Shown: piece by piece, positions 2,936-5,797 of the stretch
How positions within the stretch are numbered: the first letter of the stretch is position 1
How the letters are laid out: the number at the start of each line of letters is the position of its first letter
Assembly (NCBI GenBank): GCA_002162075.1
Contig: CP021423.1
Location: 1,922,001-1,986,000, forward strand
Direction: 5' to 3'
Length of the DNA stretch: 64,000 nt
DNA from: Armatimonadetes bacterium Uphvl-Ar1
Lineage (GTDB): Bacteria > Armatimonadota > Fimbriimonadia > Fimbriimonadales > Fimbriimonadaceae
Program-made: the position numbers and the translations under genes
Notes under the pieces: model-generated
The model's database searches: none
Told to the model about the DNA's origin: nothing
Seen by the model: the letters and a program-made list of their open reading frames with translations, nothing else

Positions 2936-3340
2936 ATGAGTAATGCCAAGTCTCTCGTCGGAATTGTCGCCGGAGTGATTGCCCTCTCGACCGTCGCGTT
3001 TGTGATGCTCTCCAATGCAAGCCCATACGTCACCGTCGCTGAGGCGAAGAAAACCGATGCAGATAATCTACATATCCAAGGTGATCTCCTAAAGGAGACT
3101 GTTCAAGTCGATATCAATACCCAGAAAGTCCGTTTTGCCATGCGCGACGACAACGGCGACACAGTTAACGTCCTTTTTCACGGATTACCCCCGGCGAATA
3201 TGGGAGAAGCGACCCGAGTTGTAGCTGTCGGAGGGATGAAAGGCGAAACGTTCGAGAGCCACAAAATCCTCACCAAGTGCCCCAGTAAGTACGAAAGCGA
3301 TCCAAAAGCTCTCAAAAAAACAAAAGCTGAACTTAATTAA
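2936..3340 (+). CDS. ccmE: Cytochrome c maturation protein CcmE, cysteine (CxxxY) variant
   Basis: CcmE is the membrane-anchored periplasmic haem chaperone that passes haem from CcmABCD to CcmF/H. The 134-residue product has one N-terminal membrane anchor (about residues 7-25), then an OB-fold with FHGLPPANMGEATRVVAVGGMKG, the family signature. The classic haem-binding histidine (HxxxY) is replaced by cysteine: LTKCPSKYES, with Cys115 and Tyr119. CxxxY-type CcmE is known from archaea, Desulfovibrio-type bacteria and some others. It lies 6 bp upstream of ccmF, so the pair is co-transcribed. Confidence 0.92.
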   Translation: MSNAKSLVGIVAGVIALSTVAFVMLSNASPYVTVAEAKKTDADNLHIQGDLLKETVQVDINTQKVRFAMRDDNGDTVNVLFHGLPPANMGEATRVVAVGGMKGETFESHKILTKCPSKYESDPKALKKTKAELN

Positions 3341-3346
3341 AATCAG

Positions 3347-5797
3347 ATGAATTTCGAATTCTTCACCCTCTGGGCTCAAACTGCCCCGGTTCCCGTCAAC
3401 AGCCTGACCTGGGTAGGAACGCTCGGTCGCATTCTAGTGGCACTGGGGGGCATCCTCGCTTTCACAAGCTTTGTTGCTGCCGCCCGAAATAACCAAAATA
3501 TAGCGGTCAAAGCACTGCATGGAGCCAGCATTTCATTCGGCACTGGCTTTCTTTCCCTCCTAACCCTGTTCCTCACCTCCCAGTTTCAATTCCGATATGT
3601 ACAGCGTCATTCCGCACTCGATCACGAACTCCAGTACAAATTCGCTGGAGTCTGGTCAGGTCAAGAGGGCTCTTTTCTCCTCTGGACGATATGCTCCGCC
3701 CTGTTCCTCAGCCTTGCGGTGAGAAAAGCAAATGGGTACGAGCGCTGGTTTGCCGGTGTCGGAAGCCTGTTCCTCGCCGCTCTTGCGGGAATTCTTTCAT
3801 TTGAATCTCCATTCGCACTCAACCCCGCAGGAACTGACCTTGCAGACGGATTTGGCATGGCTCCCAGCCTTCTCAACTATTGGGTCGTCATTCACCCCCC
3901 CACGATATTTCTCGGCTTCGGCTGTCTTACCGCTTTATTTGCATGGTCAGTTGCCGCCATGCTTCATCGAGACCTCGATACTTGGATCGATCAAGTACGC
4001 CCGTGGGCTCTCGTGGCTCTCTCGCTCACCGGAGTCGGCCTCTGCATGGGCGGATTCTGGGCCTACGAAACCCTTGGATGGGGTGGTTTCTGGGCCTGGG
4101 ATCCAGTTGAAAACACGTCGCTCGTCCCATGGTTGATCCTCGCCGCTCTCGTCCACGGCATGATCGTCCAAAAAGCCCGCAACAAGTGGCACATTGGAAA
4201 CGTTGCCCTTGCCGCTTCTCCATTCCTGACATTTGTATACGGCACGTTTCTCACGCGAAGCGGGTTCCTTGGCGACACCAGTGTTCACAGTTTTGCCCAG
4301 ATGGATCGCTCAGCCCTTTGGATTCTCACCGGCCTCGGAATCGCCGCGCTCATTGGTTTCCTCGCTGTGCTCGTCCCTACTAAGAAATGGTGGGCAACCA
4401 TCGCCCCGCCCGCACCAAAAGTTGAAGGCTTTTTCACCAAGGACACCTTTTACGCCTACGGAAACTGGCTCCTTATTCTTGTCGGGGTGATCGCCGGATT
4501 CGGCATGAGTGTCCCCCTCATCCAGTCCCTCCAGGGCCAATCACCCAAAGTGGTTGAAGAATCGCTCTATAACACCGTAACCGCATTTCCATTCCTCCCG
4601 CTCGTCCTTCTCATGGCAATTGGCCCCTTCCTTACATGGAGAAAAGCCGACCTCAAATCCAAATCCAGCCTTTTCATCAATTGCCTCGCTGCAACAATTG
4701 CAACCACCGGATTCTTGCTCCTGTGGCTCAAGTGGGGAGGTCGCGAAGTCGCGTTCGGAAGTTTTATTGTCGGATTCCCCGGTCGCAGTGCTGATCCCAC
4801 CAAAGCAACTGAGCTGCTTCTGGGACAAGCCACCATTCCGACTACACCATGGGTGCTTTTCCTGTTTGCTGTCTGTTCCTTTGCAATTTTTGCAAACCTC
4901 GCCAAAGGAATCCAGCTTTTCCGCAAGAACAAACTGTCATCGGCGGGAATGCTCACTCACTTGGGTGTAGTCCTCACCCTCGCCGGATTGATCTTCTCCC
5001 GAGGTCTAGAACAGAAGTTCGAAGGAGTCGTTCACGAGTCCAAAACCATCCAAGCATTTGGCTACGATATAGACCTCCTGGACTACACCTCAACTTTTGC
5101 CGACCGCAACAACAAAGTGCGGATGAATTTCCGCAAAGGGCCAAACCAATTCACTGCAACCCCCGGCCTCTATTTCATCCCTGGACAAGACGGTTCACCC
5201 CAAGAGTTCCTCTGGCCCTACATTCACTCCTGGCCCCTCTATGATCTCTATGTCGTTGCCCGCGCTTTTCACATCGAGGAAGAAGGCACTCTCGATTTTG
5301 GCGGGAGCGAACCCGTCAGTCTCTTGCCCGGTCAGCGTGCCGAGTTCAACCGAGTACTCATTTCCTACCAAGGCATGGAAACTGAAGGAACACCGGGAAC
5401 GTTCGGGGCAAAATTCTCAACTGTTCTGACCGTCACAAGCCCCGCCGGCGAAGAAGTCATCAAACCTTACGTCAAGCTCCTCGGCCCTGGCGAAATGGAG
5501 CGGCCCGTAGTTGAAATCGGTCGGGGACTAGGCATCTATGTGGACAGCATCAACGCAGCCGATAAATCCGCTGCCCTAGTCATCAAATATACGACTCCGG
5601 CCTACCCGGTTCAAATTTTCTATAAGCCCTTGACTATTCTCGTCTGGTACGGGGTCGGTATCATGGCCCTCGGCGGAACGCTCGGCGCGATTTACCGTCG
5701 AAATAGACCGAAGACTCCGAAAAATCCGGACGATTCAAACGCCGCCGAACCGGAAACGGAACAAGCAGATGCAACTGAAAACCTTGTTGAAGTCTAA
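3347..5797 (+). CDS. ccmF: Cytochrome c haem lyase subunit CcmF
   Basis: An 816-residue polytopic inner-membrane protein that ligates haem from CcmE to apocytochrome c. The tryptophan-rich WWD motif is visible as WGGFWAWDPVENTSLVPWL (about residues 245-263), flanked by conserved periplasmic regions (HPPTIFLGFG, TFLTRSGFLGDTSVHSF). A large soluble domain lies near the C-terminus before a last membrane helix and an acidic tail. The gene begins 6 bp after ccmE, and its last 29 bp overlap the start of panD, suggesting translational coupling. The CcmE partner is of the cysteine type. Confidence 0.95.
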   Translation: MNFEFFTLWAQTAPVPVNSLTWVGTLGRILVALGGILAFTSFVAAARNNQNIAVKALHGASISFGTGFLSLLTLFLTSQFQFRYVQRHSALDHELQYKFAGVWSGQEGSFLLWTICSALFLSLAVRKANGYERWFAGVGSLFLAALAGILSFESPFALNPAGTDLADGFGMAPSLLNYWVVIHPPTIFLGFGCLTALFAWSVAAMLHRDLDTWIDQVRPWALVALSLTGVGLCMGGFWAYETLGWGGFWAWDPVENTSLVPWLILAALVHGMIVQKARNKWHIGNVALAASPFLTFVYGTFLTRSGFLGDTSVHSFAQMDRSALWILTGLGIAALIGFLAVLVPTKKWWATIAPPAPKVEGFFTKDTFYAYGNWLLILVGVIAGFGMSVPLIQSLQGQSPKVVEESLYNTVTAFPFLPLVLLMAIGPFLTWRKADLKSKSSLFINCLAATIATTGFLLLWLKWGGREVAFGSFIVGFPGRSADPTKATELLLGQATIPTTPWVLFLFAVCSFAIFANLAKGIQLFRKNKLSSAGMLTHLGVVLTLAGLIFSRGLEQKFEGVVHESKTIQAFGYDIDLLDYTSTFADRNNKVRMNFRKGPNQFTATPGLYFIPGQDGSPQEFLWPYIHSWPLYDLYVVARAFHIEEEGTLDFGGSEPVSLLPGQRAEFNRVLISYQGMETEGTPGTFGAKFSTVLTVTSPAGEEVIKPYVKLLGPGEMERPVVEIGRGLGIYVDSINAADKSAALVIKYTTPAYPVQIFYKPLTILVWYGVGIMALGGTLGAIYRRNRPKTPKNPDDSNAAEPETEQADATENLVEV

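Follow-up and report, generated by a model that had tools for sequence, protein, structure and literature searches.

The ccmEF locus encodes a Cys-type CcmE

The window, a stretch of 64,000 nucleotides, comes from the genome of Armatimonadetes bacterium Uphvl-Ar1, which is 2.99 Mb in a single contig and 98.8% complete. The ccmE gene in the window directly precedes ccmF, and the following features were assigned at this locus:

2936..3340, + strand: ccmE, Cys-type haem chaperone with a membrane-anchored OB fold, 134 aa (Pfam CcmE, E 3e-16; AlphaFold; Foldseek)
2942..3013, + strand: CcmE N-terminal anchor helix, residues 3-26 (AlphaFold model)
3275..3292, + strand: CcmE haem-attachment motif KCPSKY (C115 codon TGC at 3278-3280; Y119 codon at 3290-3292)
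3347..5797, + strand: ccmF, cytochrome c haem lyase, 816 aa (match to 6zmq, E 2e-45)
4076-4111, + strand: CcmF WWD region (conserved in the alignment)
3893, 4154, 4286 and 4958, + strand: first bases of the codons for the conserved CcmF histidines H183, H270, H314 and H538 (alignment)
5012..5260, + strand: CcmF periplasmic beta domain 1, residues 556-638, common to short CcmF (AlphaFold; profile comparison)
5264..5605, + strand: additional beta domain of CcmF, approximately residues 640-753, which is a divergent duplicate of the periplasmic domain (AlphaFold; profile comparison)

The AlphaFold model of CcmE is an anchored OB fold with a mean pLDDT of 87. When this model was submitted to Foldseek, ranks 1-4 and 6 were CcmE structures (8ce8_E, 1lm0, 1j6q, 1sr3 and 2kct), and the lower matches were other OB-fold proteins. 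At E 0.001, the sole PDB match by sequence was 2kct, the CcmE of D. vulgaris, which is described as a CxxxY protein (PMC3884852). The top-scoring named relative, at 57% identity, was from a Fimbriimonadaceae MAG. C115 aligned with H130 of E. coli K-12 and Y119 with Y134 in all 77 rows of an alignment made of the window protein and 76 of the 80 relative loci (L005, L027, L028 and L081 were left out). The first-pass annotation had read KCPSKY, with C115-x3-Y119, as the haem-attachment motif of a CcmE, and the open reading frame and this alignment bear it out. The motif is present as described; the start given for it, 3279, falls one base inside the Cys codon. The further statement that CxxxY is known from archaea and sulfate reducers agrees with the published System I* (PMC3601427). 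The window encodes a genuine CxxxY CcmE, and the cysteine is not an error.

Cysteine is the usual CcmE residue in Armatimonadota

One reading of the Cys codon is that it arose by a mistake in sequencing or assembly and that the CcmE is an ordinary HxxxY protein; its one point in favor is that the residue differs from that of E. coli. A profile search that makes no demand for a cysteine covered 201 Armatimonadota genomes, sampled from a larger group, and found CcmE in 127. The motif was read in all 127 and was CxxxY in 119, CPSKE in four and SPSKY in one; three proteins had no motif and none had HxxxY. The first-pass annotation had proposed aligning CcmE homologues of the lineage and had named relatives with a normal HxxxY and a sequence error at this codon as what would refute it; no such relative occurred in this set. 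The same-genus genomes L124, L129, L136 and L234 agree with the Cys reading. Also, a change from CAY (His) to TGC takes two base changes, so a one-base error cannot produce the Cys codon. An error is almost certainly not the explanation and was dropped, since it is refuted by the relatives. Because CxxxY was found in so many of these genomes and HxxxY in none, the cysteine is very old in the phylum. It is the usual CcmE residue of the sampled genomes and no peculiarity of the host genome. A peptide-based search for relatives likewise gave a cysteine at the motif site in all 81 CcmE loci, host genome included, although this set is biased because TKCPSKYE was one of the six query peptides.

Two variants of the motif were seen in Armatimonadota. 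Four genomes (L171, L172, L173 and L206) have KCPSKE, in which the cysteine is retained and the tyrosine is replaced by glutamate. One genome (L214:5116-5607, - strand) has KSPSKY, with serine in place of cysteine, within a ccmABCEF cluster whose ccmB gives matches in two frames.

CcmF carries a second periplasmic beta domain

The cysteine is of a known kind, that of System I*, and the more interesting part of the locus is the CcmF domain duplication together with its pattern in the phylum. The CcmF of the window reads WGGFWAWDP and keeps the WWD region. The term WWD appears in the title of PMC10746174. This region and the four histidines were invariant in 65 CcmF rows, and the histidines were found in 176 of 176. 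CcmF frames below 610 aa were dropped, as were duplicates of loci already included. The entries removed before alignment were four truncated proteins (L099, L149, L167 and L179), four repeats (L001, L002, L006 and L244) and a near-copy from another genome (L234); the 176 still hold one repeat, L040 being the same protein as L263. The first-pass annotation had called this a CcmF of ordinary WWD type, which is true of the WWD region and the histidines but not of the 816 aa chain as a whole, with its extra periplasmic beta domain.

Between aligned positions 633 and 761, the window CcmF has 128 residues compared to 22 in the 647 aa CcmF of E. coli, and the extra part is about 110 residues long. 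Across the 176 proteins, this stretch was either 22-27 residues (short CcmF, n=43) or 117-202 residues (long CcmF, n=133), with none intermediate. AlphaFold modelled the extra part confidently as a second beta domain, with a mean pLDDT of 84-95 per ten-residue block over residues 651-760 and 55 at the joint (641-650). A profile of the insert was compared with two profiles of the periplasmic domain. With that of 11 short CcmF it scored 56.8 over 92 columns (P 1.3e-10), and with that of domain 1 from 147 CcmF it scored 40.9 over 58 columns (P 6e-8). The corresponding controls reached at most 14.9 and 12.7 in 60 column shuffles, and 21.4 and 15.9 with the reversed profile. The extra domain is homologous to the periplasmic beta domain of CcmF itself, and we read it as a probable tandem duplication of that domain. 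In the titles and abstract starts of papers on CcmF, CcmH, insertion and periplasmic domain, no such duplication was found in print, and by title and abstract start no paper was found on cytochrome maturation in Armatimonadota.

Two other identities were considered for the insert. Comparison to a CcmE-like domain gave no support (hhalign score 12.7, E 0.16). A thiol oxidoreductase also fails, since cysteine is absent from 132 of 136 inserts and thiol chemistry is therefore not expected.

The host genome holds a System I* gene set

The ccmABC genes are together elsewhere in the host genome (C1 2,676,578-2,678,593), apart from ccmEF; CcmA was assigned from its ABC_tran match and its place in ccmABC. 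There are only two Cytochrom_C_asm proteins, CcmF and CcmC, and the window gene is the single CcmE match. No ResB was found by profile. The check for ccmH elsewhere in the genome that the first-pass annotation had proposed gave no CcmH by profile, in a search that a diverged CcmH, being short, may escape. Nor was CcmD found by profile, which for this short protein matched in just 2 of 14 control genomes. CXXCH is present in two ORFs whose PSCyt1 match exceeds the cut-off, and a further ORF matches below it, so cytochromes exist for maturation. The CXXCH DNA pattern occurred 193 times in the genome compared to 124 times in the reversed control.

System I* is the Ccm system with a Cys-CcmE of Allen 2006 and Goddard 2010, as given in Stevens 2011 (PMC3601427). 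The host genome shares with it the CPSKY at the haem-binding position (Cys at the H130 position with Tyr four residues on), the anchor and OB fold of CcmE, CcmA, CcmB, CcmC and CcmF, and the lack of a detected CcmH, which is a frequent and not a defining feature of System I*. It differs in that the host belongs to Armatimonadota and has ccmABC and ccmEF in separate places. The archaeal Ccm of Methanosarcina acetivorans also has a CxxxY CcmE and no CcmD or CcmH found, and CcmI is reported as absent there; its CcmF is split in two, in contrast to the one enlarged chain of the window (PMC9084895). E. coli System I shares the OB fold of CcmE and the WWD region and histidines of CcmF, but E. coli CcmE has a histidine where the window protein has a cysteine, and CcmD, CcmG and CcmH are annotated in E. 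coli. Two classical System I features, HxxxY in CcmE and a CcmH (by profile), are absent from the host genome, and the System II pair of ResB and ResC/CcsA was not found in it. We put the probability that the window CcmE serves as haem chaperone in cytochrome c maturation of the System I* type at roughly 0.93. Sequence, fold family, gene content and conservation in the lineage support this directly.

Alternatively, the window protein might be a degenerate paralogue of CcmE with no remaining role in cytochrome c maturation. CcmE-like OB-fold proteins without the haem motif do occur in ten genomes of the family (L221-L230, one of them same-genus), and the distance of ccmEF from ccmABC would also fit. 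However, the window gene is the sole CcmE match in its genome, has the full CPSKY motif and is immediately followed by the single ccmF; c-type cytochromes are also encoded in the genome, but ResB is not. This makes a degenerate paralogue very improbable. The motif-less protein of the ten genomes looks exported, judging by its sequence, and in most of them it adjoins a phosphoribosyltransferase-like gene, a name that is a reading of the sequence. Separately, two loci have a second, motif-less CcmE-like ORF between ccmE and ccmF (L016:10369-10749 and L076:10326-10784).

In a System I* pathway, the N-terminal helix of CcmE would be in the membrane with the OB domain outside, and CcmABC would deliver haem to it. 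Cys115 would bind the haem, probably by forming a thioether-like bond with a vinyl group, and Tyr119 would serve as a ligand. The haem would then pass to CcmF, which has the WWD surface, the haem b histidines and the duplicate of the periplasmic beta domain and may attach the haem to the CXXCH of the apocytochrome without CcmH. We infer covalent haem binding and the order of transfer from what has been published for Desulfovibrio and Methanosarcina. Desulfovibrio System I* is reported to function in E. coli when CcmH and CcmG are missing (PMC3601427), and C120 of Methanosarcina CcmE to be required for haem (PMC9084895). As a counterpoint, D. vulgaris CcmE has been reported as a non-covalent haem binder (PMC3884852).

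Cys-CcmE and CcmH are separate traits

CcmH was found by profile in 3 of the 201 Armatimonadota genomes and not in the other 198, and each of the three adjoins a Cys-CcmE. Among 38 other Cys-CcmE genomes, covered through 38 of the 80 relative loci, CcmH was over the cut-off in five, all Bacillaceae. It was below the cut-off in two more, where the matching gene does not belong to a ccm cluster in the fetched stretches. Two Bacillaceae plasmids have an annotated operon of the same kind, with a CPSKY CcmE and a CcmH. Cys-CcmE and CcmH occur together in Bacillaceae and in three Armatimonadota, so whether CcmE has His or Cys is a trait separate from whether CcmH is present. A rule that Cys-CcmE means no CcmH is ruled out by the five Bacillaceae loci, the two plasmids and the three Armatimonadota. 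The first-pass annotation had taken CxxxY to imply a different partner set; this is right for the host genome, which has no CcmH by profile, but does not extend to the genomes where Cys-CcmE is beside CcmH. A survey of 36 genomes by Stevens et al. 2011 reported Cys-CcmE and CcmH loss as separate, with CcmH in about one-third of the Cys-CcmE bacteria examined (PMC3601427).

The motif LRCXXC is named in PMC12285233. The five Bacillaceae CcmH (L033:9960-10442, L041:9133-9606, L044:12400-12885, L057:12432-12908 and L071:12378-12920) have no CxxC in their first 140 residues, and their remaining domain matches Pfam CcmH. Two proteins, one from an Ignavibacteria genome and one from a Melioribacteraceae genome (L241:1210-1971 and L242:1093-2091), have zinc-ribbon-like starts, apparently two CcmH-like Cys motifs and a CcmH match below the cut-off.

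The CcmF duplication as a possible replacement of CcmH

The extra domain could be a functional stand-in for CcmH, such that CcmF alone docks the apocytochrome. As judged from the fetched stretches, some of which are short or stop at a contig end, CcmH adjoins none of the 133 long CcmF but 15 of the 43 short ones (three Armatimonadota, five Bacillaceae loci, two plasmids, four from the phylum of a Deferribacteraceae genome, and E. coli). The short-CcmF Armatimonadota closest to the long clade also include three with CcmH (L217, L219 and L220). Set against this, the other 28 short CcmF have no adjoining CcmH, 25 of them from a search of the same Deferribacteraceae genome's phylum, and the inserts free of cysteine offer no thiol chemistry in its place. 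A tree was built by a quick method from 76 of the 176 CcmF rows, on the core without the trait columns. It comprised 46 long forms, 11 short forms accompanied by CcmH, 18 short forms lacking it, and the E. coli protein, and requires one change for the long form (SH-aLRT 100) and at least three for CcmH. The insert thus arose once and provides no independent cases. The group nearest the long clade has two CcmF with CcmH (L219 and L220) and two for which no CcmH was found (L125 and L128). In the latter two, ccmF is followed by an ORF that is CcmI-like by a purpose-built profile and has no Pfam match.

In the Deferribacteraceae genome's phylum, CcmF was found in 45 of 50 genomes, and all 29 CcmF measured were short. 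CcmE was also present in 21 of the 30 fetched stretches, always with CPSKY, and 46 of the 50 genomes had no CcmH match. This phylum, together with L125 and L128, rules out a rule that a system with no CcmH requires a long CcmF, and the duplication is no general need of CcmH-less systems. Given its single origin and the short CcmF without CcmH, any link between the duplication and CcmH loss is one historical event. A stand-in role is therefore doubtful.

A related proposal, which we also consider unlikely, concerns the large System I* clade to which Armatimonadota and Ignavibacteria belong. There, the CcmF domain may have been duplicated at about the time CcmH disappeared. At the WWD site, the new copy would hold either the apocytochrome or holo-CcmE, making one protein the whole CcmFH synthase. 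How System I* joins haem without CcmH was posed as an open question in the Stevens 2011 review, which stated that bioinformatics had revealed no compensatory feature (PMC3601427). If the proposal is true, the CcmF duplication would be a feature of that kind. A phylum rich in Cys-CcmE that has relatives with CcmH and a short CcmF provides natural pairs for testing this part of CcmF as a CcmH replacement.

A further deviation in CcmF was seen in five loci of one Armatimonadota family (L118, L130, L135, L139 and L161). Where other CcmF have about 70-110 residues from aligned position 431 to 538, these proteins have 17-25, as if membrane helices had been lost.
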